NCBI RefSeq assembly: GCF_947488135.1 | Contig: NZ_CANKYW010000001.1 | Location: forward strand, 930,001 to 994,000 | Direction of reading: 5' to 3' | Length of the DNA: 64,000 nucleotides | Origin: an uncultured Marivita sp. | GTDB lineage: Bacteria; Pseudomonadota; Alphaproteobacteria; Rhodobacterales; Rhodobacteraceae | In this document: in pieces, positions 3,279 through 20,311 of the stretch | How the letters are laid out: every line of letters starts with the position of its first letter | Position numbering within the stretch: the first letter of the stretch is position 1 | Notes under the pieces: model-generated | Told to the model about the DNA's origin: nothing | Seen by the model: the letters and a program-made list of their open reading frames with translations, nothing else | Database searches by the model: none | Translations under genes and position numbers: made by a program

Positions 3279-3296
3279 TTTCTGGGAGGAGACATC

Positions 3297-4106
3297 ATGG
3301 ACCCCAATCGACTGAAAGGTAAGAACATTCTGATCACCGGTGCCGCACGTGGCATGGGTGCGGCCAACGCCGAAGCTTTCGCCGCGCAGGGTGCCAATGT
3401 CTGTGTTGGGGACCTTGATCTCGACGAGGCGCAAAAGGTTGCCGACGCGATCAACGGCGCGGGCAACGGCCGCGCCATCGCGGTCAAGATGGACGTGACG
3501 AAGCGCGAGGACAACGCCGCCGCCGTGGCCGCGACCGTCGATGCATTCGGGTCGATCAACGTGGGTCTTTTCAACGCGGGCCTGAACAAGCCGCGGTTCT
3601 TCATGGATATCGATGAAGACAACTGGGACATGATCATGAACGTCAACACCAAGGCGATGTGGCTCGGCATGCAGGAAACCGCGCGTCAGATGATCAAGCA
3701 GGGTCCGATGGAGGATCATCCCTACAAGCTCATCAATGTGGGCTCCATCGCGTCGCGTAAGCCGCTGGTCGATGTAACTGTCTATTGTACCTCGAAATAC
3801 GGCTGTCTGGCCTTGACCCATTGCGGTGCGATCGGTCTGTCAGAACACAACATCACCGTGAATGGCTATGCGCCGGGCGTGGTGGTGACACCGCTTTGGG
3901 AACAACTCGACAAGGACCTCGTCGACATCGGTTTCAAAGAGCGCGAAGGTCAGGCCTATGACGACATCGTCCGCGACGCGCTACAGATCAAGCGTGTGTC
4001 CTATCCCAAGGATATCGTCGGCACCGCGTCTTTCCTCGCCAGCGACGACAGCGATTACATGACGGGCCAGATGGTCCATATCGATGGCGGCTGGTGCATC
4101 CAGTAA
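3297..4106 (+). CDS. SDR-family dehydrogenase
   Basis: A 269-residue classical short-chain dehydrogenase, 18 bp after the regulator gene and preceded by GGGAGGAG. It has the cofactor motif TGAARGMG (residues ~15-22), an acidic end to strand 2 (VGDLDLDEA) suggesting NAD(H), the NAG motif (FNAG), a catalytic Ser (NVGSIAS), the YxxxK pair (YCTSK) and the usual C-terminal IDGG. It resembles polyol/sorbitol- and butanediol-type dehydrogenases. It probably oxidises a hydroxyl of the imported substrate; the exact substrate is not visible. Confidence 0.9.
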   Translation: MDPNRLKGKNILITGAARGMGAANAEAFAAQGANVCVGDLDLDEAQKVADAINGAGNGRAIAVKMDVTKREDNAAAVAATVDAFGSINVGLFNAGLNKPRFFMDIDEDNWDMIMNVNTKAMWLGMQETARQMIKQGPMEDHPYKLINVGSIASRKPLVDVTVYCTSKYGCLALTHCGAIGLSEHNITVNGYAPGVVVTPLWEQLDKDLVDIGFKEREGQAYDDIVRDALQIKRVSYPKDIVGTASFLASDDSDYMTGQMVHIDGGWCIQ

Positions 4107-4169
4107 CTCGCTAAATTACTGTTTTTCAATAAAAACGGGCGCGCCTTGTCGCACCCGAAGGAGCCTATC

Positions 4170-5468
4170 ATGTCTCGCGCACTTATGCCCAACCTGCTCA
4201 CCCCTCAGGATCTTGAACCCAACTGGGAATGGCGGGAACGCCTGCCCGCATGGGGCCACACCTCGGTCGATTTCGAACGCCGGATCGACCATGACCGTCT
4301 GCGCCGCTACCGTCTGGCCCGCACGCGGCAATCCTTGCAGAACTCTCAGGCAGGCTCGCTGCTGTTGTTCGACGTGAACAACATCCGCTATGTCACCGCC
4401 ACCAAGATCGGCGAATGGGAACGGGACAAGATGTGCCGCTTCTGCCTGCTAACGGGTGACGATAGCCCCTATGTCTGGGATTTTGGCTCGGCTGCTGTCC
4501 ACCACAAGCGTCACTCCGACTGGTTGGAACCCGATCACTGCCTCGCCGGTGTTGTCGGCATGCGCGGGACCATCCCGCCCGAGTTTGGCCTGATGCAGAA
4601 ATATGCCAAGATGATCGCTCAACTGATCAAGGATGCCGGCATGGCCGACATGCCGGTGGGCGTGGATTACGCCGAAACCGCGATGTTTCATGCGCTCAAG
4701 GCTGAGGGCATCAACGTTGTAGACGGCCAGCAGATCATGCTTGCGGCGCGCGAGATCAAGAACTGGGACGAAATCCAGCTGCTCACGCAGGCCGCCGCGA
4801 TGGTCGATGGCGTTTACCACATGATCTACGAAGAACTGAAACCCGGTGTGCGCGAGAACGACATCGTGGCAATGTCGAACAAGCTGCTTTACGAGATGGG
4901 GTCTGACGACGTGGAGGCGATAAATGCCATCTCCGGCGAACGCTGCAACCCGCATCCGCATAACTTTACCGACCGGTTGATCCGCCCCGGCGACCAGGCC
5001 TTCTTTGACATCCTGCAAAGCTATCAGGGCTATCGCACCTGTTACTACCGCACGTTCAACGTGGGCCGCGCGACGCCGGCGCAAAACGACGCCTATGTAA
5101 AGGCCCGCGAGTGGATCGACGCGTCGATTGCGATGATCAAGCCGGGGGTGACCACCGATAAGGTGGCCGAGGTCTGGCCGACCGCCGAAAGCCTTGGTTT
5201 CCCCAACGAGGACGCCGCCTTCGGTCTGCAATTCGGCCATGGACTTGGCCTTGCGCTGCACGAACGCCCGATCATCAGCCGTGCTGTGAGCCTCGATCAC
5301 CCGATGGAGATCCAGACCGGCATGGTTTTCGCGCTGGAAACCTACTGCCCGGCGACCGACGGCTACTCTGCCGCGCGGATCGAGGAAGAGGTCGTCGTGA
5401 CCGAAACCGGCTGCGAAGTCATCAGCCTGTTTCCCGCCGAAGAACTGCCCATCGCGAACCGGTACTGA
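4170..5468 (+). CDS. M24 (Xaa-Pro peptidase/creatinase/DddP-fold) family enzyme with altered metal site
   Basis: A 432-residue protein; the ATG at 4170 follows AAGGAG closely. The C-terminal half has the pita-bread fold motifs: [18 protein letters not shown] (~279-296), [12 protein letters not shown], an ALETY Glu and a final EEE. In metal-dependent M24 enzymes the first motif is D-x10-D. Here Asp280 is kept but the second ligand position is Cys291. The His and two Glu ligand positions remain. The family includes aminopeptidase P, the DMSP lyase DddP and the metal-free creatinase, so C-N, C-S or peptide cleavage are all possible. It sits among sugar/polyol SDR genes, suggesting a small-molecule hydrolase. 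Specific activity is unknown. Confidence 0.8.
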
Positions 5469-5470
5469 TC

Positions 5471-6235
5471 ATGGCACATCTGTTTGACCTGACAGGCCGC
5501 AAGGCGCTGGTCACCGGTGGCGCAACAGGCATTGGCGAGGGCATCGCCCTTGCCCTTGCCGACGCCGGGGCCGACGTGGCGCTGAGCTATCGCAGTCACC
5601 AACCCGATGCGACACTTGCGGCGATCGAATCCAAAGGCCGGAAGGCCGCGGCCGTAAAAGCCGATTTCACCGGAATGGATGAAGCCGCTGCCGAAGAGGT
5701 CACGCGCTTTGCCGCCGACGCCCTGGGGGGGCTCGATATCCTTGTGAACAACGCCGGGATCATCCACCGGGAGGAGTCGGTGGACATGCCTCTGGAAGAG
5801 TGGCGGCGCGTGCTGTCCGTCAACCTCGACTCCGTCTGGTTGCTGTCGCAAGCCGCCGGTCGTCGCATGACCAAACAGGGATCGGGCAAGATCGTGATCG
5901 TGTCGTCCGTTCTCGGCACGCAGGGCGGTCTGCGTGTTCCCGCCTACGCGTCCAGCAAACACGCGGTGCTCGGTCTGACCAAGGCGCTGTGCAACGAATG
6001 GGCAGGGCAGGGCGTGAATGTGAACGCCATCGCCCCAGGCTACACCGCGACCGACAACACACAGGCGCTCCGGGACGATCCTGAACGATCGAAAGCCCTG
6101 CTCGAACGCATCCCCGCCGGACGCTTTGCCGAACCCTCTGAAATCGCCGGTGCGGCTGTTTTCCTCGCCTCCGATGCTGCTGCCTATTGCCATGGCAGCA
6201 CGGTGACCGTGGATGGCGGCTGGCTGGCCCGCTGA
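5471..6235 (+). CDS. SDR-family dehydrogenase, KduD-like
   Basis: A 254-residue short-chain dehydrogenase starting 2 bp after the M24 gene. It shows [12 protein letters not shown], the catalytic Ser in VSSVLG, YASSK and the VDGGW ending. The sequence style resembles the KduD / 2-deoxy-D-gluconate 3-dehydrogenase group, which interconverts keto and hydroxy forms of sugar acids. The tight packing puts it in the same operon as its neighbours. The substrate is inferred only from family and context. Confidence 0.87.
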
Positions 6236-6245
6236 AAGTGACACC

Positions 6246-6989
6246 ATGACCCAATCACTGACCGGAAAAACCGCCCTCGTGACCGCCGCCGGAAACGGCA
6301 TCGGACGGGCGTCCGCCGAAGCGATGGCTCGGCTTGGGGCGACCGTCATCGCCACCGATATCGACGGGGCCGCTGTTGAAACTGTCGCCGCCGGGTCCGA
6401 CCGGATCACGGCGCATCAGCTGGACGTCCTCGACGCCGATGCGGTCGCAGGGCTGATCGCGGATCACCCCAAGATCGACATCCTCGTGAACTGCGCGGGC
6501 TGGGTGCATGACGGCACGATTCTGGATTGTGACGAGACGGTCTGGGATCGGTCCTTCGATCTCAATGCCAAGGCGCTGTTCCGCATGACGAAATCCGTCC
6601 TGCCCGGCATGCTCGACCGCAAGTCGGGATCAATCGTCAATATCGCGTCCATCGTTTCGAGCGAGAAGGGCGCGCCGCGCCGCTTTGCCTATGGATCGTC
6701 CAAAGCGGCGATCATCGGCATGACGAAATCCATCGCCGCCGATTTCGTCAAGGACGGCATCCGGTGCAACGCGATCTGTCCCGGTACGGTGCAAAGCCCG
6801 TCCCTGAACGACAGGCTTGCCGCGACGGGCGATTTCGACAAGGCACTGGCCGCCTTCAAGGAACGTCAACCGATGGGTCGTTTGGGGACACCCGAAGAGA
6901 TTGCCGAAATGGTCTGCTATCTGGCGGGCGATCTGTCGGCCTTCACCACCGGACAGGCATTCGCTGTCGACGGCGGTTGGTCGATCTGA
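6246..6989 (+). CDS. SDR-family dehydrogenase, keto-deoxy-fuconate dehydrogenase/BDH2-like
   Basis: A 247-residue SDR. The ATG at 6246 starts right before the conserved LTGKTALVTAAGNGIG, so the longer in-frame extension to 6213, which overlaps the upstream gene, is not used. Motifs are TAAGNGIG, NCAG, NIASIVSS, YGSSK and a C-terminal FAVDGGWS. The ICPGTVQSPSL segment and the GRLGTPEEIAEMVCYLAGD tail resemble the BDH2 / 2-keto-3-deoxy-L-fuconate dehydrogenase subgroup. It probably oxidises a keto-deoxy sugar acid. Its stop codon overlaps the next start (TGATG), indicating coupled translation. Confidence 0.87.
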   Translation: MTQSLTGKTALVTAAGNGIGRASAEAMARLGATVIATDIDGAAVETVAAGSDRITAHQLDVLDADAVAGLIADHPKIDILVNCAGWVHDGTILDCDETVWDRSFDLNAKALFRMTKSVLPGMLDRKSGSIVNIASIVSSEKGAPRRFAYGSSKAAIIGMTKSIAADFVKDGIRCNAICPGTVQSPSLNDRLAATGDFDKALAAFKERQPMGRLGTPEEIAEMVCYLAGDLSAFTTGQAFAVDGGWSI

Positions 6990-8137
6990 TGGGACTGGAC
7001 CGCGCTGCCTCGATTGATGACCTGCGAACGCTCGCACGTCGGCGGATTCCCCGCTTCGCTTTCGATCTGGTGGATGGCGGAGCGGAATCCGAACGCAACC
7101 TGCGCCGCAATTCAGAGGCGTTTGAAGAGGTTGAACTCACTCCGCGCTACATGCGCAATGTCGCTTTGATAGACACCAGCGCGACCTTGTTCGGGCAAAC
7201 CTTCGACCTACCGTTCGGCATGGCCCCCATCGGGATGCTCAATGCGTTCTGGCCCAATGCCGACCTCATCATAGCCCGGATGTGCAAGCGCGAGAACATC
7301 CCCTATGTCGCCAGTTCGGCGGCCTCCACGACACTCGAAGACCTGGCACAGGCCGCGGATGGGAATGGCTGGTTCCAGCTATATGTCTCCAGCGATGACA
7401 CCGTAACCGACGGTCTGATTTCACGGGCCGAGGCCGCTGGCTATCCGGTGATGATGGTCACGGCTGACGTGCCCGCGGCGGGCAAACGCGACCGCGATAT
7501 CCGCAACCAACTTGCGGTGCCTTTCAAGATCACGCCCGAAGTGGTGATCCAGCTTGCGCTCAATCCGCGCTGGTCGCTGGAAACGTTGCGCCACGGCAAG
7601 CCCAACATCGCCAACTATGCCGACCTTCTGCAAAGCGCGACCTCCTACGCGGATGTCCAGAAGACCCTGATCACGCCGGGCTTCACATGGGACGCCTTGC
7701 GCAGATTGCGCGACCGTTGGAAGGGAACGCTTCTGGTCAAGGGCATCCTGCATCCCCAAGACGCTGTTCAATGCGCCGAGATCGGCTGTGACGGCATCGT
7801 CGTGTCGAACCACGGCGGGCGACAGGTGGCGTTCGGCCCGCCGACCGTCGAAGCTTTGCCCGCGATTGCCGAGGCCGTTGGCGAACGGATGACCGTGATC
7901 CTCGACAGCGGGGTCCGTCGCGGTGCCGATATCTTGCGGGCCAAGGCCCTTGGTGCGGATTTCGTGCTCTCGGGTCGCGCGCTGGCCTATGGGGTCGGGG
8001 CAGGCGGCAGCGCGGGCGCACAGCGCGCAATGGACATTCTGAAGCTCGAGCTTGAACGCGCATTGGGACAACTCGGAGCCTCGAGCTTCGAAGAGGTCGG
8101 CCCCGCGCAGCTTTCGAAAGCGCTTATCGCAGGCTGA
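6989..8137 (+). CDS. FMN-dependent alpha-hydroxy-acid oxidase/dehydrogenase
   Basis: A 382-residue protein of the lactate/glycolate oxidase family, starting in a TGATG overlap with the upstream SDR. Family motifs are visible: GMAPIGM, VASSAASTTLEDLA, FQLYV, VTADVPAAGKRDRDIRN, LLVKGILHPQDA, and the catalytic His with flavin-binding Arg in SNHGGRQ, then DSGVRRGADILRAKALGAD. Two spots differ from textbook members: the Tyr of the N-terminal FDYxxGGA motif is Leu (FDLVDGGA), and SNHGGRQ is followed by VAFGPP rather than LD. It probably oxidises a 2-hydroxy acid made by the pathway, such as lactate from a deoxy-sugar acid; this is inference. Confidence 0.88.
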   Translation: MGLDRAASIDDLRTLARRRIPRFAFDLVDGGAESERNLRRNSEAFEEVELTPRYMRNVALIDTSATLFGQTFDLPFGMAPIGMLNAFWPNADLIIARMCKRENIPYVASSAASTTLEDLAQAADGNGWFQLYVSSDDTVTDGLISRAEAAGYPVMMVTADVPAAGKRDRDIRNQLAVPFKITPEVVIQLALNPRWSLETLRHGKPNIANYADLLQSATSYADVQKTLITPGFTWDALRRLRDRWKGTLLVKGILHPQDAVQCAEIGCDGIVVSNHGGRQVAFGPPTVEALPAIAEAVGERMTVILDSGVRRGADILRAKALGADFVLSGRALAYGVGAGGSAGAQRAMDILKLELERALGQLGASSFEEVGPAQLSKALIAG

Positions 8138-8325: not shown

Positions 8326-9906
8326 TTGACGCAGAGGGATCATCGAAGTCATCACCACGCTCACGAAGCACGCTGGAAGACCTTCAAGAAAAAGGAAACC
8401 GGGCTTCCTTCGTACAAACCCAAGCATTTTGCCAAGTTGCAGCAGAGACTGAGCGGCCGTGTTCAGGTGGCCGGGGCGCCTGGATACAATGATGATCGCA
8501 TGGTATTCATGCACACCTACCAGCAATATCCGCAGGTCATCGTCTTTTGTGAATGCGAGACCGATGTCGTCGCTGCATTGAAATTCGCGAAGAAATCGAA
8601 ACTTCAGGTAACGGCCCGGTCGGGGGGACATTGCACCGCCGGCTATTCGGTCAACGATCAGGTGGTGATCGACACGTCCGGCCTGAACCACGTGATCGTC
8701 GACGCGGACACTCCAAGCGTGCGTTGTGGCCCCGGCGTGACCTTTCGCAAGTTGAACCGGGTTTTGGAGTACCACAAGCTGCATCTGCCCGGCGGCGGCT
8801 GCGAAACGGTCAATGTCGCGGGCTACATGATGGGCGGGGGCTATGGCTTCACCTCGAGGCTCTTCGGCATGAATTGCGACCGGGTGACGGGGGTGCGCAT
8901 GGCGCTGTCAAATGGCAGCATTGTCACGGCGAACGCTAAGGAGAACGAAGACCTGTTCTGGGCCGTGCGCGGGGGTACCGGCAACCAGTTCGGTATGCTG
9001 CTCGAAATCGAATACGACCCGGTGCCGCTGAACCGAAAGTTCTTCGGCTTCGGGCTGCGCTGGAACATGCGTCACAAGCACGAGGCCGATATCGATAGGG
9101 TTTGCCGGGTGCTGGAGCACTTGCAGGCGGAATATTCGAATTCCGGGCCGCCCAAGATGGGCCATCAGGCGCTCTTGATGTATCTGCCGGACGCCGACCA
9201 CCCGGATGGGCAAATCCCCTGCCTGTCGCTGCGCGGGCTCTATGACGGCTCGCGCGATGAAGCGAAACCCGCGCTTGGCCCTTTGCTCGATACACTCGAA
9301 GACCCACGCAAGGACGTCGAGATCTGGACGCGCAAGCATCGGTACACGCGGCTGAACGAAATGCTGCTTCAAACCGTGAACCCGCCCGGAATGGACATGC
9401 CGAACGTATCGATGAACACCAAGCCGCTGGTCGAAGGGTGGCTGATCGACGAACATCATGCGGCGGATCGGTGGCGCGACGTGGTGGAACATTTTCTGAA
9501 CGCGCCCGACAAGACCTGTTTTATCGCGTTGGAGTTTTACGGAGGGGCGATTGCCGAACCGAAACCCACCGACATGGCCTTTGTCCACCGCGACCCGTCC
9601 GTCGATATGTTCAGCTGGGCGTTCTGGACCTTTGACAGCCACAAACAGGCGAGCATCGACTGGCTCGACGGTCTTGGCGAGATCGCCAAAGGCATGGGGA
9701 GCGGGCGGCGCTACCAGAACTACCCGCGGCGCGGGACCAAGGATTTCCTGACCGCCTATTTCGGGGAAAACCTTCCGCGCCTGCAAGAGATCAAGGCCAA
9801 ATATGATCCGGACAACATGTTCTGGTTCGAACAAAGCCTCGGGCCCGAACCTCTCCCGCGTGACAAAAGCGCAGAGAAGAAAGCCAAGAACGCGGAGCCT
9901 GCCTGA
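8326..9906 (+). CDS. BBE-type FAD-linked oxidoreductase, predicted bicovalent flavin
   Basis: A 526-residue flavoprotein of the berberine-bridge-enzyme/PCMH family. The TTG at 8326 is proposed as start because GAGGA lies 8 nt upstream and the frame contains no earlier convincing site; a GTG at 8173 would read through the hairpin at 8192. The FAD-binding part contains RSGGH (His102, for the 8-alpha bond) and GGGCETVNVAGYMMGGG (Cys159, for the 6-S-cysteinyl bond), so both covalent flavin anchors are present. The C-terminus has a BBE-like YFGENLPRLQEIKAKYDPDNMF segment. No signal peptide is seen. Its stop overlaps the start of the next gene, so it belongs to the quinone-oxidase operon. Family members oxidise alcohols, sugars or aromatic metabolites; the substrate here is unknown. 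Confidence 0.85.
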   Translation: MTQRDHRSHHHAHEARWKTFKKKETGLPSYKPKHFAKLQQRLSGRVQVAGAPGYNDDRMVFMHTYQQYPQVIVFCECETDVVAALKFAKKSKLQVTARSGGHCTAGYSVNDQVVIDTSGLNHVIVDADTPSVRCGPGVTFRKLNRVLEYHKLHLPGGGCETVNVAGYMMGGGYGFTSRLFGMNCDRVTGVRMALSNGSIVTANAKENEDLFWAVRGGTGNQFGMLLEIEYDPVPLNRKFFGFGLRWNMRHKHEADIDRVCRVLEHLQAEYSNSGPPKMGHQALLMYLPDADHPDGQIPCLSLRGLYDGSRDEAKPALGPLLDTLEDPRKDVEIWTRKHRYTRLNEMLLQTVNPPGMDMPNVSMNTKPLVEGWLIDEHHAADRWRDVVEHFLNAPDKTCFIALEFYGGAIAEPKPTDMAFVHRDPSVDMFSWAFWTFDSHKQASIDWLDGLGEIAKGMGSGRRYQNYPRRGTKDFLTAYFGENLPRLQEIKAKYDPDNMFWFEQSLGPEPLPRDKSAEKKAKNAEPA

Positions 9907-11726
9907 TGATCGATGACACCCCTCCCATCTGCACTCATGCCGACAGCGACACCTGCGCCTCTTGGTGCGGGCGCGATCCGAAACAGGGTCGTCTGCTGGG
10001 CATCTTCTTCGACCCACCCATGGCCATAGCCCGCGTCGGCGGATCGAAAGAGCCGATGCCCGCCTACCGCTGGAAACTCGACGAGAACCCGGCGCGCGGT
10101 GTGCAAACGATGATCGAGCCCGCACCGAACCTGATCGAGACCTCGGTCAAGGGCCACGGCCACCACCCCTTTACGCTAAAGGTCGAAACCCCGGATCAGG
10201 TCACGTTCAAGGACCGTCACGGCAAGATCAAACCCGTCGCCCCGTTCTTCGAGCTTTGGGCGCGGGTGCAGGACGGCGTCGGGACCGTGGTTAAGGTACC
10301 GGTCACTGAGGCGTTCCTGAAGGCGCGGGGGACGTCGCTGAAACACCTGCGTTTCACGGTGATCGCGGCCAACCGCAAGGCCGAGGCGCGCACCAAGCTG
10401 GCCTCGTGCGCGGCCATCGCGCGCAAGGTGTTTTCGGCCGACAGCTACAAGACCCACCATCTCGACGCGATCAGCCCGCATACCGAAGGGCAGGTGCCGC
10501 TGGTGCGCGAGGATGCCCCTCTTCCGCTGGGCAAGATCCGGACGTACAAGCCGAACCTCGACGATCCCGATTGCCAGACGCGGCTCGATCAGATCCGCCT
10601 GCGCTTCATTCCCGGCAAGGGCGATGCCTACGGTCCGCCCGAGGCATCCAAAGCTCCGGCTTCGCCTCTGCCGCCCGGAGCCTTTGCGCCAGCGGTCACG
10701 GAATACGGGCGCATCCACAAGATGACCCGAAAGGAGAACCGCATCCTGAGTTCCGACACACCGTGGTCGGGCTACAATTTCCGCACCGACAACGCACCCA
10801 AATGGCCAACCCCGATGGACAGCTACGACGGCGCACGGGTTGGGTCAGGCAACAGCTGGGGGCTGATCGACGACACCTGCGATCTGGTGCTGACGGCCGA
10901 GCTCGCCATCGATGGCGTGTCCCATACGGCGCAAGCGCGGTCGATGGCAGGGCCGCCGGATTTCGCGCCGGACAAGCGCCCGATGTATTCGATCAAGGAC
11001 GAACTCGAGGACCGCGACTTGCCGCCAGCAGAGCTGGATATCGACAGGACGCCGGTAGAGATCCTCGACCTGTTCCGCCGGATTTTCGAAACCGCGAGCC
11101 TCGTGAACCTCGACCAGCGGCGATCCTGGGCACTGGACGGCAACGCGCAACTGTTGGCCGAACCGGACGAGAACGATCCCGATTGGGACGCTGGCCTGAC
11201 CCCTCGGCTAGGCCCGAAATCCATGCGCGAGGATGATGCGCCCTTTGCGAGCCTCGTGCCGGAATACACGCCGGGGCAGGGCGATACGATCGAGCCGCGG
11301 TCGGACGCGCATGACCGCTTGCCCTACACGCAAGTGGTGCAGCAGGTCCATGCGCGCATGTGCGACAGCCCGATCCTTCGCGCCTTTCTGGTTCGTGACC
11401 CCGACCGCGTGCGACGCATCATTCGACCCCCCTTTGCGCATGTCGGCGAACTGCCGAAGATCCCGGGCGTGCAGCCCGATCCGGCGGTCGATTTCGGCGG
11501 ACAGGACGGTCTCGACGATATCACCTACCGCGACCCGCGCGCGATCAAGGCTCAGACATATGACATGCGGATGCCCCCCTACATGCGCCATTCGATGGGC
11601 GTACCGCTGTCGGTCACGCGTCGGCAGTACGATTTGCTGATGGCCTATCTCAACAAGCTGGAGGGTGATTGGAAACAGACCGTCCAGCCCGAACTGGACA
11701 CCAAGGAAACGGAGGCCGGGACATGA
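9906..11726 (+). CDS. LodA/GoxA-like N-terminal half protein
   Basis: A 606-residue protein, translationally coupled to both neighbours (TGATG at its start, ATGA at its end). Near the N-terminus, PPMAIARVGGS resembles the HPAIGxARxG opening of LodA/GoxA amino-acid oxidases, and a following segment (VTFKDRHGKIKPVAPFFELWARV) also fits that region. The C-terminus (MGVPLSVTRRQYDLLMAYL) resembles the LPLTxxQYxxL segment that lies in the middle of LodA. The cofactor-bearing second half of LodA is absent here but present in the next gene. Several cysteines lie at the N-terminus (CTHADSDTCASWC). I infer it is the structural subunit of a split LodA-like oxidase. The homology is read by eye and is remote. 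Confidence 0.6.
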   Translation: MIDDTPPICTHADSDTCASWCGRDPKQGRLLGIFFDPPMAIARVGGSKEPMPAYRWKLDENPARGVQTMIEPAPNLIETSVKGHGHHPFTLKVETPDQVTFKDRHGKIKPVAPFFELWARVQDGVGTVVKVPVTEAFLKARGTSLKHLRFTVIAANRKAEARTKLASCAAIARKVFSADSYKTHHLDAISPHTEGQVPLVREDAPLPLGKIRTYKPNLDDPDCQTRLDQIRLRFIPGKGDAYGPPEASKAPASPLPPGAFAPAVTEYGRIHKMTRKENRILSSDTPWSGYNFRTDNAPKWPTPMDSYDGARVGSGNSWGLIDDTCDLVLTAELAIDGVSHTAQARSMAGPPDFAPDKRPMYSIKDELEDRDLPPAELDIDRTPVEILDLFRRIFETASLVNLDQRRSWALDGNAQLLAEPDENDPDWDAGLTPRLGPKSMREDDAPFASLVPEYTPGQGDTIEPRSDAHDRLPYTQVVQQVHARMCDSPILRAFLVRDPDRVRRIIRPPFAHVGELPKIPGVQPDPAVDFGGQDGLDDITYRDPRAIKAQTYDMRMPPYMRHSMGVPLSVTRRQYDLLMAYLNKLEGDWKQTVQPELDTKETEAGT

Positions 11727-13564
11727 GTGTCGAAGCAAAACCCACCGGTCCGAAGCAGATGAACCTCGCGCCCGCACCCGATCCGCGCGGCAATCCTGCC
11801 TATCCCGAACCGGTGCTGGGCAATCCGGTGTCGACCTTGATGGAATCCGGGGTCGGCAATTGCTTTCCGGGGCTGGAATTCGACGTTCGGCAACTCGACG
11901 TGCGGTTCTTTCCGGGACTGGTTTTCGAGTTCCTGGGCGTCACCCCGGCAGGGCCGGACGGCACGCAGGGCGCACGGCTGGTCTATTCCGATCCGGCGGG
12001 TGATCCGATCATCGCCGATCACTTCACCGCTGATGGGCCACAGTGGATCACGGACCTGAAAAAGCAGTTTGCAGGGCCCGAAGGATCGGCGCTGGGCGAT
12101 GGCACGTGGTATCTGCATTTCGTCGAACAGGACGGCAAGCGGATCATGATGTACGATTACGCGCTCTACCAGAACGCGGCGGGTCTGACCCCGTACGAAG
12201 GCGAAACCGTCTGGTGGATCATCCGTCTGATCGAACCGGACAAGCCGCTGACCATCGCCCTGACCCAGCGCGCGGCGGATGGCTCCCCCAGCGGCGTTCC
12301 GGTGGTCCTGACCGGGCGCCGTCGGCAGTTTCTCAACGATGAAGGGATGATCGACCCGGTTTATCATCCTGGTGAGCTCACCTCATCGATGTGCAGCCCG
12401 TGGACCCATGATTTCCGCGACTGCGCCTGTCACTACTGGGCCTCGAACCACCCCGATGTGGTGCTGGGCGAGGTGGACGACCCGCAGCAGCAACTGGACA
12501 ACCGCACTGACGAGAACGACGCGGCGCAGGCCGTGACCTTCATCGATTGGATGCGTCGGCGGCACGAACCGCTCAAGGATGTGTCCGCGCAGACGACTTT
12601 GCCCAAAGCAAGGCCGGACCGCTATGATCCGTACGAAATCAACCTGCACTGGCAACAGCTCGATTTTGTGTTGCAGGGACAGGAGGCCGAGGCGACGCCG
12701 CCCGTGCCGCAGATGCTGAAGCTGATCAAGTACGAGACGCTGGAAAAGATGGTCGCCGACCTGAGCGAGAAATTGGCCGGGATGGAGCTGACGCTGGCGA
12801 TGGAATATCTCTACGCGTATTTCAGCCTGCGAGAGCCGGACGAGGTCACGGCCGAGGAAGAAACCAAATGGCCAGGCCTGCGCGAGGACCTGCACGCGGC
12901 CCGCCAACTGATCCTGTCCGTCGCGCTGAGCGAGATGACCCATCTGCGCTGGGTCAACCAGACGCTCTGGTTGATCCATAAGGCCTATCCCCGTTTAGGG
13001 CCGTATAAACCCTGCCTCACGGCGGCCAAAACGATCTCAGAACCGGACCCCGCCACGCCCGACATCGAAAAGACCCGCGATCGGCGACTGTGCCGCGCAA
13101 CGCAGGTCGTGCTGCAAGGCTTTGTCGATGTGGAACGGCCGGACGGGCCTCTTGATACCGAGTACGTCAACCTCGTCGGCCTGTTGCGCGAGTCGAAAGA
13201 ACCCTTCCCCGAAGGTCTGTACCAACTGGCCGTCCGCATCGACAGCGACGGGATGCAACACTACCAGAAGTTCCGCGATGTAATGCGCTTCCTCGCGCCC
13301 TACGCGGAGCAGGAGGCGCTGTATCTGCGTCCGATCAAGGAAGGCAACGCGACGTCGCCCGAGGTCAAACCCGCATTGGACCAGATCAGAACGGCGCTGG
13401 ACGGCCTTGCCGAAGCATACGCAATCGAGGCCGAACTTGGCGACATGCCAAAAGCCAACGCCAAGATCAAAGAGGCACGGGACGCGATGCACAGGCTCAA
13501 CGACATCGCACTCGGCTTGGCGCGCAAGAACATCGGCGTTCCGTTCTTCGCGGTGTTCGAATGA
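11723..13564 (+). CDS. LodA-like cofactor half fused to a ferritin-like domain
   Basis: A 613-residue protein overlapping its upstream neighbour by ATGA. Residues ~40-285 match the second half of LodA/GoxA: NCFPGLEFDV, then PWTHDFRDCACHYWASNHPDVV (~226-247). In LodA, Asp512 and Cys516 (DxxxC) and Trp581 build the cysteine tryptophylquinone. Here Asp230 and Cys234 keep that spacing, and Trp276 (FIDWMRRRHE) is the likely Trp, with a shorter 42-residue gap. Residues ~340-600 resemble a VioB/RebD-type ferritin-like domain, with Glu361, Glu404, His407 and His513 as possible metal ligands (MEYLYAYFS, LSEMTHLRWVNQ, GMQHYQKF). I have not seen this fusion described. No signal peptide is seen. The quinone cofactor is inferred. 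Confidence 0.65.
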   Translation: MSVEAKPTGPKQMNLAPAPDPRGNPAYPEPVLGNPVSTLMESGVGNCFPGLEFDVRQLDVRFFPGLVFEFLGVTPAGPDGTQGARLVYSDPAGDPIIADHFTADGPQWITDLKKQFAGPEGSALGDGTWYLHFVEQDGKRIMMYDYALYQNAAGLTPYEGETVWWIIRLIEPDKPLTIALTQRAADGSPSGVPVVLTGRRRQFLNDEGMIDPVYHPGELTSSMCSPWTHDFRDCACHYWASNHPDVVLGEVDDPQQQLDNRTDENDAAQAVTFIDWMRRRHEPLKDVSAQTTLPKARPDRYDPYEINLHWQQLDFVLQGQEAEATPPVPQMLKLIKYETLEKMVADLSEKLAGMELTLAMEYLYAYFSLREPDEVTAEEETKWPGLREDLHAARQLILSVALSEMTHLRWVNQTLWLIHKAYPRLGPYKPCLTAAKTISEPDPATPDIEKTRDRRLCRATQVVLQGFVDVERPDGPLDTEYVNLVGLLRESKEPFPEGLYQLAVRIDSDGMQHYQKFRDVMRFLAPYAEQEALYLRPIKEGNATSPEVKPALDQIRTALDGLAEAYAIEAELGDMPKANAKIKEARDAMHRLNDIALGLARKNIGVPFFAVFE

Positions 13565-14880
13565 CCTCGGTCTTTCCCAAGCCGGAATCACGGCCGAGTG
13601 CGCTGGCCCATGTCGCGGGAGACGTGCTTCTGATGGCCGACACCGCCGCGATCTTCGGTCTGTCCGAGGCTGATGCGCGCCGGTTGCGCCACGCCTTGCA
13701 GACCGGTGATACAGCGGCGAGGGCAGAGCTGGCGCGGCTTAGGCTTGACACTCCGATGCAGGCGCGCCCGCCGCGCGTCACTGTCCATCCCGTGCGGGCG
13801 CTGGCGCTGACCGTGTCGCAGACCTGCAACCTCGCTTGTGGCTATTGCTACGCCGCCGGTGGAAGTTTCGGCGGGGCGGACACGCGGATGAATTGGGATG
13901 TGGCCAAGCGCGCCATCGACCAGCTGATCGTCGGAACCGTGCCCGGAGGCGGGGTCAAGATCGCCTTCATGGGGGGCGAGCCAATGGTTGTCCGTGACCT
14001 GATCCGCAAGTCGGTTGCCTATGCCAACGAACGTGGGGCCGCGCGTGCCGTGCAGGTGGGCTATTCGCTTACGACCAACGGAACGCTGATCACACCCGAG
14101 GATGCCGCCTTCTTCGCCCGTCACCGTTTTGCCGTCACGGTCAGTCTGGACGGAGGACGCGAGGTGAATGACCGTCTTCGCCCCGACAAGGCTGGAAAGG
14201 GCAGTTTCGACCGTGTCGCACACCGGATTGCGTCCTTGCTCAAGCAGCGCGAGCGGGTTCAGCTGAGCGCGCGGGTGACGGTGACACCGCTCAATCTGGA
14301 TGTGCGCCGCGTGGTCGAGGATATCGGCGCGCTTGGCTTCACCTCGGTCGGCGTGGCCCCGATGATCTCATCCCCCACTGGCAAGGGCGCTCTGGTCGGT
14401 GAGGATTTCGCGATGCTGCTGGACGCGATGAAAGCCTGCGGCGATGCGTGGTTCGATGCGGTGAGTGGGGGTGGCGATCACGCCTTCGCCAACCTGGCCA
14501 CCGTTCTGGGCGAGTTGCACCGCGGTCAGCCGCGCAGCCACGGCTGCGGTGCCGCGCGCGACTATCTGGCGGTAGATGCCGATGGCGCCTATTCGGCCTG
14601 TCACCGTTTCGTCAAGGATCCGCTTGGCGCCATGGGCACGCTCGAGTCGGGACCCGACGATGAGGCCCGCGGCGCTTTTCTGGACGCGCGGACAGTCGAA
14701 CGGCAAAGCCCGTGCCAAACCTGCTGGGCACGCAGGCTCTGTGGCGGCGGGTGCCATCAGGAAGTCCTGCACGCCGGTCGTCCCGCCTGCGATTTTGTGC
14801 GCGGGTGGCTCGATTATGGATTGCGAACCTACAAGCGGATGCAGGTCGCGCGCCCGGACTGGTTCGATGCACACTCATAG
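13561..14880 (+). CDS. Radical SAM/SPASM protein-modifying enzyme
   Basis: A 439-residue protein starting in an ATGA overlap with the LodA-like/ferritin gene. Cys89, Cys93 and Cys96 form the radical SAM CxxxCxxC motif (TCNLACGYCYAAG), followed by MGGEP. The C-terminus is a SPASM domain with auxiliary-cluster cysteines (HGCGAARDYLAVD, YSACHRF, CQTCWARRLCGGGCHQE, CDF). This SPASM pattern is typical of peptide and protein maturases, including QhpD, which makes thioether links in quinohemoprotein amine dehydrogenase. Its substrate is most simply one of the two Cys-rich LodA-like proteins encoded immediately upstream. Known LodA systems need only a flavoprotein, so a radical SAM enzyme here is an extra maturation step. 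Confidence 0.87.
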   Translation: MTSVFPKPESRPSALAHVAGDVLLMADTAAIFGLSEADARRLRHALQTGDTAARAELARLRLDTPMQARPPRVTVHPVRALALTVSQTCNLACGYCYAAGGSFGGADTRMNWDVAKRAIDQLIVGTVPGGGVKIAFMGGEPMVVRDLIRKSVAYANERGAARAVQVGYSLTTNGTLITPEDAAFFARHRFAVTVSLDGGREVNDRLRPDKAGKGSFDRVAHRIASLLKQRERVQLSARVTVTPLNLDVRRVVEDIGALGFTSVGVAPMISSPTGKGALVGEDFAMLLDAMKACGDAWFDAVSGGGDHAFANLATVLGELHRGQPRSHGCGAARDYLAVDADGAYSACHRFVKDPLGAMGTLESGPDDEARGAFLDARTVERQSPCQTCWARRLCGGGCHQEVLHAGRPACDFVRGWLDYGLRTYKRMQVARPDWFDAHS

Positions 14881-16276
14881 AGCCGACGTCGCGGTGCTGG
14901 GCGCTGGTCCAGCGGGCTGCGTCGCTGCGCGTCATTTGGGTCAGGCCGGTGTCGACGTGATATTGGTCGATGGTGCGATTTCGACCGGCAGTCACCACGT
15001 CGAGAGTTTCCCGCCGTCGGGTGCGCCCCTGGCCGAAGATATCGGCCTGCTTTCCACAATCTGCGCCGCCAGCGACGGTCCGGCTTCAGCCATGATGATG
15101 AACTGGCGCGATATGTCCGAGATCCGAGCATTTGAGGGAGATGGCCCCCTGCTGCTGCGACGTGAGGCCTTGCACAGTGCTCTCCGTGCGGAAGCCGGCA
15201 TGCACGCGCGCATGTTGCAAACGCAGGTGCGCAAGATCGTGACGAGTGACGATGCCGCCGAAATGACGACGGATGAAGGGGCGATCATCTGCCGAATGAT
15301 CGTCGATGCGCGTGGGCGTCGCGCGCTTAAACGGCAAGGCTCCGATCTTGTCGCGCTTCCTTTCGATGCGCGCGGCGATGTTCCGGACTACACAATGTGG
15401 CTCGACGCTTTGCACAACGGGTGGCTGTGGGCCGCCAGTCTGGGGGGTGGTGAAATCCACGGGGCGATCTTTCAAAAAGCATCTGCTTTGGCCGGGTTGT
15501 CCTCTCAAGGCAGGCGAGCCCTCGCGCGGCACCAGCTTCTTCATGCGTCGGCTTTTTCGAATGCCTGCGATTTGTCCGTCGGCCCCCCTGCCGCGGCAGG
15601 ACTTTCGGCCATGCGTGACCCTGTCCAGTCGCCTCGCCATGTGCTTATCGGGGATGCCGCGCTCGCGCGCGATCCGATCGCGTCGCACGGTTTGGTTCAT
15701 GCACTGCGGAGCGGTGTGCAGGCGGCGGTTGCTGTGCGTACGATCCTCGATCCAACGGGGGATACGCAAGCAGCCCTCGCGTTTCTGCGCCAAAAACACG
15801 TCGAAGCCGTATCAAGCGCGCGTGAGGCGACGGCACGGGCCTATCGCGATCAATCCCGGTTCACCGGGCCATTTTGGGCAGAGCGCAGCGAAAGCATTGA
15901 TGCGAAAACCGCTCCGCAGATCGGGTCTGGGCCTGTCACTCTGGCTGACCCATTGACCCGGGCGCCGGTCCTCGAAACCGACAGGATTCGATGGGCACCC
16001 GCGATCGCTCTTCCCGCGCAAAACAGCTTTTTCACCCAGCACGGAACCGTCACCGCCCGCGACATCGCCGTCGCCTGCCGACCGGCGGCCCCGTTGCAAG
16101 AGATTGCAACGCGTCTGGGGCGGGTGCACGCGATGCCAATTGTGTTCGATGTCTTGCAACATCTCACGCTCGGCGGCGCCTTCGCTCAGGCCGTGCCGTT
16201 GCCGTCCAACAAGCCGTGCGCGCGAGTCACGTCCCATCCATCATCAAGGGAAATCATGCGGGACAACGTATCCTGA
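14867..16276 (+). CDS. LodB/QhpG-like FAD-dependent maturation flavoprotein
   Basis: A 469-residue flavoprotein whose ATG lies inside the end of the radical SAM gene. The N-terminus is a GxGxxG FAD site (VLGAGPAGC, residues 10-18). A second FAD motif reads IGDAALARDPIASHGLVHAL, as in the tryptophan halogenase/geranylgeranyl reductase-like group that includes LodB and QhpG. Those proteins hydroxylate the precursor tryptophan of CTQ oxidases, which fits the quinone-site protein two genes upstream. The last ~100 residues have an extra helical part (VTARDIAVACR...) of unknown role. The 3' end overlaps the convergent cyclase gene by 91 bp. Confidence 0.78.
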   Translation: MHTHRADVAVLGAGPAGCVAARHLGQAGVDVILVDGAISTGSHHVESFPPSGAPLAEDIGLLSTICAASDGPASAMMMNWRDMSEIRAFEGDGPLLLRREALHSALRAEAGMHARMLQTQVRKIVTSDDAAEMTTDEGAIICRMIVDARGRRALKRQGSDLVALPFDARGDVPDYTMWLDALHNGWLWAASLGGGEIHGAIFQKASALAGLSSQGRRALARHQLLHASAFSNACDLSVGPPAAAGLSAMRDPVQSPRHVLIGDAALARDPIASHGLVHALRSGVQAAVAVRTILDPTGDTQAALAFLRQKHVEAVSSAREATARAYRDQSRFTGPFWAERSESIDAKTAPQIGSGPVTLADPLTRAPVLETDRIRWAPAIALPAQNSFFTQHGTVTARDIAVACRPAAPLQEIATRLGRVHAMPIVFDVLQHLTLGGAFAQAVPLPSNKPCARVTSHPSSREIMRDNVS

Positions 16277-19200
16277 ACCGCTTGTAGTGTTTCGCGGCAC
16301 CGATCATCCTCTGCGATATCGCAGGTGATCCGGAGTAGGATGGACGTCGCATCCGTGGCCTCGGCACGCGCAAGCGCATCGCGCCTAAGCCGGTCCGCTG
16401 TATCTGCATCCCCGCGCGTGGCCGCGACGCGGGCCTGCATGCGCATGAGCTCAGATGACGTCCAGGTCTCGCCGGTTCGGGTTTCGGTGCTCGCCCCTTC
16501 CGCCAAAACGCCATCTGCGGCTTCGATATCGCCTGCGCGCAGGTAAATCTCGGCCAGAACGGTGGCCAGCAAGGGGCCATAGTTGAAGGGGTTTGCGGCA
16601 CGAAACTCGGCGACGCGTTGTTCGAGATCCGCCATCTCGACCGGCGAAGGCGGCTGTGGCTGACGGCACAGGGCGGAAGCGAAGGGGAACAGCCGTGCCG
16701 CCGCCCGCATCACGCTGATACCGTGCTTTTCCGCAACGACCAGCCCCTCAGCCGCCATCTCGGCCAGTTCCGGCCCGTGCCGCGCAAGCGCCCCCCACAT
16801 CACGCGGAACGACACTGCTTGAGCAAGCGAATGCGCGTGGTCGATCTTCCGCGAATGGTCGATGGAAAACGCTCCGATTTGCCGCGCGCGATCAAGATCG
16901 CCGCTGATCCAGAGCGACATCGACAACAGCGCCGCGGTGATCTCGGCGTGATCGTAACCCTGGGCATGGGCAAACGACAAATGCGCGTCCTGATCGTATT
17001 GTCCTAGCGACTCTTCGAGCCTTTGCGTCGCGGTGATCTGGTCGCCCGTGTGCAGGGCCACGGCTCCGATAGCGCGGGTGGCGATCATGACGAAGGTTTC
17101 GTTCTGGGCCAGTTCCGCCGCCGCCAGAAGCGCCTTGGCGTGCTGCTCGGCCTTGGGGTAATTCGCGCGGACCAGCGCGTGAGAGTAGAGACCGTTGATC
17201 GCCAGCAACTCTGCCTTGCGGTCGCCGATGGCGCGCGCCAAGTCGACAGCCATCTGACCCAGTTCGGCGCTCCGGTCGGTCGCGATCCCAAACCGCGACC
17301 GTTCGACCGAGGCGAGCCCGGTTACGGCACGCAATCGCTGTGCGTTGACCTTGGCGCTTGGTGCCAGCCGCGCCAGCGCGCCGTCGGCCATCTCGAAGTA
17401 ATGCCCAGCTTCGACCAAGGCCGAACGCTTGAGAAACGCGTCACCCGCGCTTAGCGCGAATTCCGCCGTGCTTTCCCAATCATGGGCGGCTTGCGCGTGT
17501 TTGGCGAGTATCTCGGGCCGAATGTCGAGCAAATCATGCAAGACACGGAACGCGGATGCATGAAGGGTTCTGCGCACGCGCCCGTCAATCTGTTCGTAGA
17601 TCACGTCCCGGTAGGCCTTGTGACGGATACCGATGGTTTCGGTTCCGTGCAGATTTCGTTTTTCGATCAATCCGCCGGATTCCAGTGCATCGAGCGTCGG
17701 TTCCATGCGGTGTGCATCCAACGGGTATAGTCCGGTCAGCACATCGAGTGGTACGTGCGAACCAAGAACGGCAAGCGCTTCGATCAGGCCGCGACCGGAT
17801 TGGATTTTGTCCAACCGTTTGGACACGGTTTCGTAGATCGTGTGGGGAACCACGACGGCATCGGCAACTTCCGGCAGTTCCTGTCGCGCTTGTGCCTGCG
17901 CCAGCGTGTTGAGCATCAGCGGGTTGCCGTCCGCGTGGTAGAGGATGTTGTCCCGTACCGCGTCGGGAATGGGCGCCCCGGCAAGAATTCGGTTGAGAAG
18001 CCGGGTCGCATCGGCCTTGGACAAAGGCGGCAAGGTGATCTGTCGATGGGCCGCGGCGTCTTGCCAGATGTCGTTCGCATCGTCCCGCGTCACCGCGATC
18101 ATCAAAAGCGGCGCGCTGGCGGCACGCGCGGTTTCTGCGGTCTGCGCCATCAGAGCACGGGTCGAGTCGTCCGCCCATTGCGCGTTTTCGAGCACCACGA
18201 CGCCGGGGGTCTTGCCGTCCCCGACGAACCAACCACTGAGCAGCTCGAGGACCGCGTCGCGATCGTTTTTCGAGATCGCGGCAGTACCTTCGGATGTTTC
18301 ACCGAGGTCCAGAAATTGGGCTACCTGGTCAGCCATCTCAGCCGTGGGAGCGGTCAGAACACTGGCGAGCGATGGAGCCGCGTCCTTGGATGCCGTCAAT
18401 TGCGCCAACGCATTTGCAACCGGCTGCAAGGGCGATTGCGCGGACATTGCACTGCATTGCAGATGGATCGCCCGGGCCGGGGCTGTTACCGCGTCTGCGA
18501 GAAAACTTTGAACCAAAGTCGATTTTCCGAGGCCCGCATCCCCGGAGACGGTCACTGTTTTGGCCCGTCCTGTTTTCACGCTTTCCCAAGCATGGACCAG
18601 CGCTTCAATCTCTGTGGCACGTCCCACGAATTGCGCCGGTTTGAGCGGGGCTTGCATGGCATTTCGCAGGCCGACCAGATGGTAAACCTCGACCGGATCG
18701 GACAGCCCTTTCAGGGCGTGGCGTTCGGCATCCGTGTAATGCACGGACGCCTGTGTCAGGTCTCGCGTTTTGAAGTCTACCGCGCAGGATTGCGGCTGTG
18801 CGATGGTCTGAAGCCGGGCCGCGCGGTTCACGACCGGCCCGACCAGATGCATCTGATCCCCGGATCCGTCGCTGTGCTTCAGTCCGACGGCTGCCTGGCC
18901 GGATGCGATACCGATCCGGGTGACGATGTGGATGGGGTCATGGCTTTCGATCGTCACTGGTGTTTTGGCCAGCGTGGTTTGCAAATCCCGGGCCGCCAGC
19001 ACGCATCGTTCGGCGAACCCGTCCAGGACCTTCGGATAGCCGAACAGAATGACAAGCCCGTCGCCCTGCGGTGTAGCCAAATGGCCGTTGTGCCGACGGG
19101 CCACGGTTTCCGCGACAGTGTAATAATGCTGAAGAACGATCTGCATTTCGTCGATATCGAGCCGTTCCCCAAGCTCGGTCGACCCAACCATGTCGCAGAA

Positions 19201-19467
19201 AAGCACGCTCAGTCGGCGCAACTGAACCGGGTTTGTGCCGGGCAGAACAGTGGAGGTGGCACTCGGGCCTGCGTCGCCGTTCAGGGATTGAAGCCCTTTC
19301 AGCAGTTTCCGCCGCTGGCCAAGACTGAGTCCAAGCTCCTTGAGATCGCCGTCATCCAGCAGCGGCAGCACCGTCATGTCGATATCTTCCGCGGTCAGCC
19401 GCTCCTGCAAGTGCAGCAGATCGACTTGCGCCAGAAAGTCAGACAACTCCAGTGATGTGGCAGCCAT
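16186..19467 (-). CDS. SAM-domain/class III nucleotidyl cyclase/AAA ATPase/TPR signalling protein
   Basis: A 1093-residue protein; ATG 19467 is taken as start, with an in-frame GTG at 19485 as the alternative. Residues ~5-65 are a SAM-type helical domain (DFLAQVDLLHLQERL, DLKELGLSLGQRRKLL). The class III cyclase follows at ~85-260: LSVLFCDMVGSTELG, PQGDGLVILFGYP with the second metal Asp, and VVNRAARLQ with the transition-state Asn and Arg. Then comes a P-loop ATPase (SGDAGLGKSTL) and, to the end, helical TPR-like repeats. It probably makes cAMP or cGMP in response to a protein or ligand signal. Three cNMP-binding membrane proteins lie just downstream in genome order, so their ligand may come from this enzyme. 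Confidence 0.87.
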   Translation of the reverse strand: MAATSLELSDFLAQVDLLHLQERLTAEDIDMTVLPLLDDGDLKELGLSLGQRRKLLKGLQSLNGDAGPSATSTVLPGTNPVQLRRLSVLFCDMVGSTELGERLDIDEMQIVLQHYYTVAETVARRHNGHLATPQGDGLVILFGYPKVLDGFAERCVLAARDLQTTLAKTPVTIESHDPIHIVTRIGIASGQAAVGLKHSDGSGDQMHLVGPVVNRAARLQTIAQPQSCAVDFKTRDLTQASVHYTDAERHALKGLSDPVEVYHLVGLRNAMQAPLKPAQFVGRATEIEALVHAWESVKTGRAKTVTVSGDAGLGKSTLVQSFLADAVTAPARAIHLQCSAMSAQSPLQPVANALAQLTASKDAAPSLASVLTAPTAEMADQVAQFLDLGETSEGTAAISKNDRDAVLELLSGWFVGDGKTPGVVVLENAQWADDSTRALMAQTAETARAASAPLLMIAVTRDDANDIWQDAAAHRQITLPPLSKADATRLLNRILAGAPIPDAVRDNILYHADGNPLMLNTLAQAQARQELPEVADAVVVPHTIYETVSKRLDKIQSGRGLIEALAVLGSHVPLDVLTGLYPLDAHRMEPTLDALESGGLIEKRNLHGTETIGIRHKAYRDVIYEQIDGRVRRTLHASAFRVLHDLLDIRPEILAKHAQAAHDWESTAEFALSAGDAFLKRSALVEAGHYFEMADGALARLAPSAKVNAQRLRAVTGLASVERSRFGIATDRSAELGQMAVDLARAIGDRKAELLAINGLYSHALVRANYPKAEQHAKALLAAAELAQNETFVMIATRAIGAVALHTGDQITATQRLEESLGQYDQDAHLSFAHAQGYDHAEITAALLSMSLWISGDLDRARQIGAFSIDHSRKIDHAHSLAQAVSFRVMWGALARHGPELAEMAAEGLVVAEKHGISVMRAAARLFPFASALCRQPQPPSPVEMADLEQRVAEFRAANPFNYGPLLATVLAEIYLRAGDIEAADGVLAEGASTETRTGETWTSSELMRMQARVAATRGDADTADRLRRDALARAEATDATSILLRITCDIAEDDRCRETLQAVQDTLSRMISLDDGWDVTRAHGLLDGNGTA

Positions 19468-19600
19468 GCAGGAGGTCGTCTCCACGTCATAGTCAGGGGG
19501 TCAAGCGTGTGACCTGACAGGAAAAATCTACACCAAGACAGGTACGTGTTGCAAACGCCGTGATGTCGAGTTTCATCTTGTCCGCTGATTTTGGAACCGG

Positions 19601-20311
19601 TCACATCCCGGCGCCGGAGGACCGTCCACTCATCCGCGCGTTTGCGGCCACCAGTTTGATCCCGGTGTCCTTGCGGATCGCGCGTTCGATGTCGACGCGC
19701 AGTTCGGGGTTCCGGTTGCAGAGTTTGAGAAGCTCTTTGGACGTGACCTTGAAAACCCGCGCCGGGCTGGCAAGCGTCACGGTCGCAGTGGCGCGGCCCC
19801 CGTCAAAACAGGTCAGTTCACCGACGAAAGCGTCCGAGTCCAGCATGCCAACCTTGTGTCCGCCATGACTGACCTCCGCTTCACCAAGCAATATGTAGAC
19901 CAGAGCGCCAAGCTCCTCGTCCTCTTCCGCGATAACGGTGCCCGGGGGCAGGTCTTCCCAGGATCCGGACAGAAAGAAACGACGCACAAGCGGTTTGGGG
20001 ATCGTCGGCAGTGTGGATCGGGCGAAAGCGGCTTCCTCCGGTGTGAGCCTGGTCGAATGATGCAGGATAAAATACCGGGCAAGGCCGAATACGCTGATCG
20101 CAATCCATGTGGTCTGGATGATGGCCGACGAAAGATTGAAATTGTTGGTCAGGGATACAAGCACAAGGGCGGCGGCGATCAGGTTCATCATCGTGTAGGT
20201 ATAGCCGTTTCCACGAAGCAACCCGGCTTGAAGGGCGGCATAGGCGCTGATGTAGAAGACGACACCGGCGAGACCGATGGCGTCGAAGATCACGGTCTGT
20301 GGGATATCCAT
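19601..20311 (-). CDS. Small membrane protein with cyclic-nucleotide-binding domain
   Basis: A 236-residue protein. Residues ~8-80 hold three hydrophobic helices (AIGLAGVVFYISAYAAL, MMNLIAAALVLVSL, IIQTTWIAISVFGLARYFIL), like the short integral domain often placed before cNMP sensors. Residues ~115-220 form a cNMP-binding domain with the phosphate-binding cassette FVGELTCFDGGRATATVTL, including the key Arg. No output domain is visible beyond it. It lies on the same strand as the cyclase, 133 bp upstream of the cyclase start, and could be a membrane-bound cAMP/cGMP sensor. Function beyond ligand binding is unknown. Confidence 0.78.
   Translation of the reverse strand: MDIPQTVIFDAIGLAGVVFYISAYAALQAGLLRGNGYTYTMMNLIAAALVLVSLTNNFNLSSAIIQTTWIAISVFGLARYFILHHSTRLTPEEAAFARSTLPTIPKPLVRRFFLSGSWEDLPPGTVIAEEDEELGALVYILLGEAEVSHGGHKVGMLDSDAFVGELTCFDGGRATATVTLASPARVFKVTSKELLKLCNRNPELRVDIERAIRKDTGIKLVAANARMSGRSSGAGM

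Follow-up and report, generated by a model that had tools for sequence, protein, structure and literature searches.

Which enzyme do five overlapping genes encode when they bring together parts of two separate families of tryptophylquinone enzymes? The genes, here called A to E, lie within a 64,000-nucleotide stretch (the window) of an uncultured Marivita sp. genome (contig NZ_CANKYW010000001.1, positions 930,001 to 994,000). To our knowledge, few tryptophylquinone enzymes are known; LodA/GoxA and the quinohemoprotein amine dehydrogenase (QHNDH) mature by different routes. The answer that we favor, at a probability of roughly 0.6, is that B and C would form a LodA-type cysteine tryptophylquinone (CTQ) oxidase bearing cross-links of the QhpD type, made by the radical-SAM enzyme D. 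The gene content of the locus, its homology, the split of the oxidase, the conservation of key residues and the co-occurrence with a radical-SAM gene are observed.

All five genes are on the + strand. A (positions 8326-9906 of the window) is followed by B (9906-11726), C (11723-13564; 613 aa), D (13561-14880) and E, which extends over 14867-16276 if the ATG at 14867 is its start. Neighboring ends overlap by 1, 4, 4 and 14 bases at the successive junctions, so the genes are probably co-translated. The preliminary description of this locus had reported five overlapping genes, as the coordinates and overlapping ends bear out, and had proposed looking for the same order elsewhere; A-B-C-D-E is indeed seen again in other genomes and is therefore not a product of chance.

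We assembled 30 family loci, comprising the window, 12 of 13 loci from a peptide-pattern search, five relatives and 12 of 19 plasmid records. The patterns that found L001-L013 included DCACHYWA, and the motif of these loci is partly selected; 17 of the 30 loci were found without the exact motif peptide, and in three of the 17 (L039, L055 and L056) the similarity that led to them lay in the cofactor segment. L012, a fragment that lacks the motif and bears the MAG name of L005, was dropped, the plasmid matches H6, H8, H9, H11, H14, H15 and H17 stayed outside the sample, and L016 and L017-L020 were left uncounted as the same places as L001 and L035-L038. For comparison, 19 ordinary LodA-like loci were taken by Pfam LodA_C from two surveys; among them, L093 is a contig of just 6 kb, and the stretches fetched for L089 and L092 measure 14 and 12 kb. 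Judging by record titles and taxonomy lines, the family spans Pseudomonadota, Acidobacteriota, Cyanobacteriota and Actinomycetota; Sulfitobacter sp. M05 (L004) and Maliponia aquimaris (L001) are members that can be cultivated. It is rare in surveys: seven of 394 genomes matched at the family level, counting the window, a contig resembling that of L001 and the partial match L039, and the single match among 349 genomes of the phylum survey was the window itself. Nine of the 12 plasmid records are annotated at this place, and they label B and C as hypothetical or ferritin-like.

Relation of B and C to LodA/GoxA

The reading that fits best is that B and C correspond to the two parts of a single ancestral LodA/GoxA-type protein, C carrying a ferritin-like domain in addition. 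This reading follows from the fold of the B model, from profile alignments and from a single-chain homologue. In searches with single sequences and with profiles, neither B nor C found LodA among PDB chains, hence the need for fold comparison and profile-profile alignment; NCBIfam at E 0.01 gave no name for either protein, and B had no match in phage records. With the predicted model of B, Foldseek placed LodA or GoxA at all of ranks 1-37 (E 2e-4 to 1.2e-2), the next match having an E value of 0.84. Against a profile of 10 ordinary LodA-like proteins, in a comparison that excluded L021 and L032, hhalign gave 96.9% for B (profile positions 313-429); the value for C was 63.2% (138-316). The cofactor segment of C, as 30 family rows against 11 ordinary LodA-like rows, reached 96.2%. 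Pfam LodA_C (cut-off 25) scored 26.2 bits with C residues 1-335 and 24.6 bits with the 631-codon open frame. In L039, from another genome of the same family, one open frame of 829 codons holds a B-like and then a C-like region, next to a separate ferritin-like gene, a D-type gene and an E-type gene. The preliminary description had seen a LodA/GoxA-like protein cut into two genes, and the B fold, the LodA_C match of C and the single chain of L039 all point the same way.

Several results weigh against this assignment. The B model is weak, with a mean pLDDT (predicted local distance difference test) of 51 and a TM (template modeling) score to LodA/GoxA of at most 0.23, and B has no Pfam family above cut-off, LodA_N reaching 16.8 bits under a cut-off of 26.3. 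In the C model, pLDDT falls below 50 at residues 215-334, that is, at the cofactor loop, the beta part and the ferritin-like part being more confident, and LodA is absent from the 50 Foldseek matches listed for it, of which the best is the ferritin-like 3hl1 (E 1.3e-3). The structure predictions were run on single chains of B and of C. Of the two checks first proposed for the split, the rebuilding of one LodA fold was reached by half, the B model matching LodA/GoxA and the C model, of low confidence in its cofactor part, matching ferritin-like chains; the profile check came out with LodA_C above cut-off for C 1-335, LodA_C just below it for the 631-codon frame and LodA_N below it for B.

A frameshift or an assembly split between B and C was rejected, since they occupy separate frames in 29 of the 30 loci, including records labeled complete. 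L039 is the one locus where the two halves form a single polypeptide as in LodA/GoxA; elsewhere they are two genes, and in L055 B itself spans two frames. In L013, from a cyanobacterial metagenome-assembled genome, B and C both seem to lack sequence where they meet (9255-11317), through either a real deletion or an assembly fault.

The cofactor segment and its two extra cysteines

C residues 224-245 (12392-12457, + strand) read C224-SPWTH-D230-FRD-C234-A-C236-HY-W239-ASNHP-D245. Cys224, Asp230, Cys234, Cys236, Tyr238, Trp239 and Asp245 are identical in all 30 relatives. In the LodA chain 3weu, Asp512 and Cys516 lie within ACPWQADFFNC, and this sequence confirms that Asp230-x3-Cys234 has the LodA spacing, as first described; Trp581 is the second Trp of YWWPPQSP. 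At this place the family has GELTSSMCSPWTHDFRDCACHYWASNHPD, and W581 aligns with Trp239 (YW239ASNHP), five positions past Cys234. D230, C234 and W239 are thus the counterparts of LodA D512, C516 and W581. Since the WWP motif of LodA Trp581 aligns there and the residue is conserved in 30 of 30, the predicted quinone Trp is Trp239, not Trp276.

Trp276 had been the preliminary candidate, and a CTQ built from Cys234 and Trp276 now seems barely credible. Trp276 is kept in 28 of 30 relatives, which speaks for it; it is replaced by Phe in L047 and L049, and the W581 motif aligns with W239 instead. The conservation proposed for the three residues is complete for Cys234 and Asp230 and stands at 28 of 30 for Trp276. 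Trp310 was also considered and rejected as the quinone Trp: it is invariant, yet it sits in a W..L.[FI] stretch that follows W581 in LodA.

Two of the invariant residues set the family apart. Cys224 and Cys236 are present in 30/30 family loci, and neither position is a Cys in any of the 19 ordinary LodA-like loci (Fisher p 5e-14, uncorrected, a value weakened by the descent that relates the loci, so that the counts are not independent). A D-type radical-SAM gene, scoring at least 392 bits, lies beside B/C in 29 of the 30 family loci, the exception being L005, whose contig ends within C. Among the stretches fetched for the 19 ordinary loci there is no D-type enzyme, L059 having one distant radical-SAM protein (61 bits), and all 19 have an E-type flavoprotein. 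This distribution makes Cys224 and Cys236 plausible targets for enzyme D.

The spacing of these residues suggests what their partners may be. The gamma subunit of QHNDH contains Cys7-Glu16, Cys27-Asp33 and Cys41-Asp49 thioethers, and its CTQ is formed by Cys37 and Trp43, according to the parts consulted of PMC8172795. QhpC, taken from six genomes, reads LCQPMEADLYGC[AS]DPCWWPAQV[PA]D, with Met after Asp49 in three Pseudomonas-like ones. Its C27-6-D33-4-C37 equals Cys224-6-Asp230-4-Cys234 of the family, and W43-6-D49 equals Trp239-6-Asp245. Because the spacings are equal to or near those in QhpC, thioethers between Cys224 and Asp230 and between Cys236 and Asp245 are predicted, and we accordingly propose an oxidase of LodA fold that carries cross-links as in QHNDH, the catalytic Asp taking part in one.

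QhpC may also be linked to LodA itself. The QhpC sequences of L041, L042, L058 and L072-L077 (PMEADLYGC..CWWPAQVPD) resemble the LodA type (PWQADFNEC..WWPAQRP). Aligned with 11 ordinary LodA segments, QhpC reached 77.8% and a score of 34.3, against a maximum of 20.9 in 200 column shuffles; in Pfam, QhpC has no LodA_C match. As a side result, a common origin of the LodA and QhpC CTQ modules is possible on these alignments.

Candidate maturases, the ferritin-like domain and a proposed mechanism

D is a SPASM radical-SAM enzyme, as first described, and kin to QhpD: TIGR03906 is its best NCBIfam match, and the five family radical-SAM proteins scanned all score highest with this QhpD model. Could D simply serve a QHNDH encoded elsewhere? 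QhpC (PF08992) is absent from the genome of the window and from all but one of the 16 further family genomes searched, which rules this out for 16 of 17 genomes; with QhpC present in one of 17, D is generally not a QHNDH maturase that has become separated from its target.

The assignment of QhpD-type cross-links to D has its own difficulties. D scores 304-306 bits with the QhpD model, under the cut-off of 453, and in the D tree, which leaves out L005 and the QhpD copies in L041, L042 and L058, no family member falls within the QhpD clade (support 100/100). The likeness to QhpC is incomplete: C37 to C41 spans 4 positions against 2 from Cys234 to Cys236, C41 to W43 spans 2 against 3 from Cys236 to Trp239, and C41 to D49 spans 8 against 9 from Cys236 to Asp245. 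No clear family counterpart of the C7-E16 pair was identified, and the QhpC profile scored 15.8 against the family profile, which is not significant (95% of shuffles fell below 19.2, with a maximum of 23.4). Among the proteins A-E, Pfam found neither a protease like QhpE nor a transporter like QhpF. With the profile match not significant, the case for cross-links rests on the spacing, the invariance of the cysteines and the presence of the QhpD-like D.

The position of D in its tree, its score under the QhpD cut-off and the lack of a significant QhpC profile match would also fit a split LodA-type CTQ oxidase in which D makes some other modification (on other acceptors, through bonds of another kind, or by forming the Cys-Trp bond) and Cys224 and Cys236 have another role, for example in metal binding or a disulfide. 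Other SPASM maturase models (PapB, nif11 and SCIFF) score above 200 bits on family radical-SAM proteins too, and a further Cys of C, Cys47, is conserved in 28 of 30. We consider this unlikely, though well worth weighing: both extra cysteines occur only where D is present, Asp230 and Asp245 are invariant at QhpC spacings, and QhpD leads the NCBIfam matches of every family radical-SAM protein scanned. Cross-linking of the QhpD type by D thus stays the reading that we prefer.

E had been described as a LodB/QhpG-like flavoprotein, in keeping with its scores: 223 bits with the QhpG model NF049967 (under the cut-off of 240), 82 with GoxB and 47 with LodB. The E-type protein of the relative L050 reaches 274 bits with NF049967, above cut-off. 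In the E tree, built without L005 (a contig without E), L009 and L037 (both cut) and the weak second matches in L002 and L013, QhpG (100/100) and LodB-type proteins (88/93) form groups of their own and the family E lies outside both, the deeper branches being weak. As far as we consulted PMC7876137, QhpG dihydroxylates the CTQ Trp of QHNDH.

The remainder of C is a ferritin-like PF12902 domain (12740-13525, + strand; 34.4 bits, cut-off 22.3), from a family that we take to be linked with VioB. This part is helical in the C model, with 3hl1 the best Foldseek match and several ferritins weaker, so that the fusion first described stands on both the domain score and the fold. Its putative metal ligands are E355, E404, H407, E471, residue 509 and H513. 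In an alignment of 21 fused proteins, from which L005 was excluded, the five named residues are present in 21/21, and position 509 is Asp or Glu by reading of the alignment; this conserved set agrees with the possible di-metal site proposed earlier.

The ferritin-like part is present in 29 of the 30 loci, fused in 22 and as a separate gene in seven. Seventeen loci have the layout A-B-C(ferritin)-D-E, A not being found in L013 and D and E not being visible in L005; L046-L049 and L057 have B-D-C(ferritin) with a weak E match nearby; and in L039, L050 and L052-L056 the ferritin-like gene stands apart, C being short or, in L039, part of the single chain. L051 keeps B, C, D and E, with no ferritin-like gene annotated in the fetched stretch. 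The ligand conservation and the near-constant presence of the domain would suit a scheme in which catalysis falls to the ferritin-like domain, the LodA-like scaffold holds no quinone and the cross-linked B/C part is structural. We regard this as improbable, given that the CTQ residues are invariant, that a QhpG/LodB-like gene is found in all loci except L005, where the contig ends in C, and that L051 retains the oxidase and both maturases with no such gene annotated.

Two plasmids show further arrangements. In L054 (Bradyrhizobium plasmid, 2947-5694), a gene next to B-C-D-E encodes a 915-aa protein that matches an FlgD Ig-like domain and BNR repeats and has PF12902 near its end. In L051 (Mesorhizobium plasmid, 11749-16597), genes for a multicopper oxidase, a tyrosinase and a cytochrome P460 come after B-C-D-E; according to the parts consulted of PMC4417212, tyrosinase and multicopper oxidase genes also accompany one LodA subgroup.

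For the preferred CTQ oxidase with QhpD-type cross-links, we infer from these data each chemical step, the order of maturation, the class of substrate and what A and the ferritin-like domain do. B and C would together make up a single CTQ oxidase of the LodA/GoxA type. Either before the two assemble or while they do so, D would make S-to-methylene thioethers between Cys224 and Asp230 and between Cys236 and Asp245; next, the QhpG-like flavoprotein E would hydroxylate Trp239, and addition of Cys234 would yield CTQ. The mature B:C would then use O2 to oxidize a primary amine or amino acid to an aldehyde or keto product, with ammonia and H2O2. The ferritin-like domain, with its putative di-metal site, would probably have the product or H2O2/O2 as its target, and the target of flavoprotein A would probably be a related substrate.

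Genomic setting and comparison with known systems

A is probably a bicovalent-FAD flavoprotein of the berberine bridge enzyme (BBE) type, as first described. It matches Pfam FAD_binding_4 (97 bits) and BBE (58 bits), and the positions expected to link the flavin (His of GGH[CS] and Cys of G[GS]C) are present in 12 of 12 aligned rows.

Downstream, the - strand encodes a SAM-domain/class III cyclase/AAA protein (16186-19485), here called F, and then, up to 23719, three proteins with cyclic-nucleotide-binding domains (19601-20311; 20508-22715, with SulP/STAS; and 22880-23719), all identified by Pfam. F is often near the operon, with a tblastn match in 13 of the 19 loci examined, and relatives of the 19601-20311 protein lie near the cyclase in L002, L003 and L007. 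These domains suggest a cyclic-nucleotide circuit beside the operon. Upstream, on the same strand as the operon, 4146-8137 encodes an M24 peptidase-like protein, two short-chain dehydrogenases and an FMN-dependent alpha-hydroxyacid dehydrogenase. The M24 protein scores 122 bits with the DddP model, under the cut-off of 600; at E 1e-15 in 19 loci, the M24 and FMN proteins had no match and the first short-chain dehydrogenase matched in L013 only.

With LodA/GoxA and their partners LodB/GoxB, the family shares the fold of the B model, the PW..D...C and W-[PGAV]...P motifs and an adjacent FAD monooxygenase gene. It differs in its two chains, in Cys224 and Cys236, in its radical-SAM gene and ferritin-like fusion, and in a maturase E for which the QhpG model gives a better score than those of LodB and GoxB. 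With QHNDH it shares QhpD-like and QhpG-like enzymes, whereas the cofactor here would lie in a LodA-type protein of 613 aa rather than in a small subunit, and Pfam found no heme or propeller subunit gene among A-E. Fungal lodA loci combine LodA-like and LodB-like genes with a ferritin-like one, of PF12902, close by (Campillo-Brocal 2015, PMC4417212, as far as consulted); there the ferritin-like gene is separate, and the main text contains no word starting with "radical". C holds a domain of this same PF12902 family and differs in having it fused to half of a CTQ oxidase. Literature searches by titles and abstract openings, which covered few subscription papers, listed no description of such a system among their matches, in line with the preliminary view of an undescribed type. 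That view also stood for the split oxidase, the fusion and the set of enzymes; it erred on Trp276 and missed the two extra cysteines and the QHNDH gamma spacing.

Altogether, the family could be a third class of CTQ enzyme, a bridge between two families so far kept apart, with a LodA fold, a thioether-held loop that includes the catalytic Asp and an attached di-metal domain, a proposal that we hold tentatively and at somewhat less than even odds. If it is correct, a large protein would be the substrate of a QhpD-type enzyme, and the cofactor modules of LodA/GoxA and of the QHNDH gamma subunit would go back to a common ancestor. By merging parts of LodA/GoxA and QHNDH, the family makes it testable why some CTQ sites need thioethers and whether the two families have a common origin.

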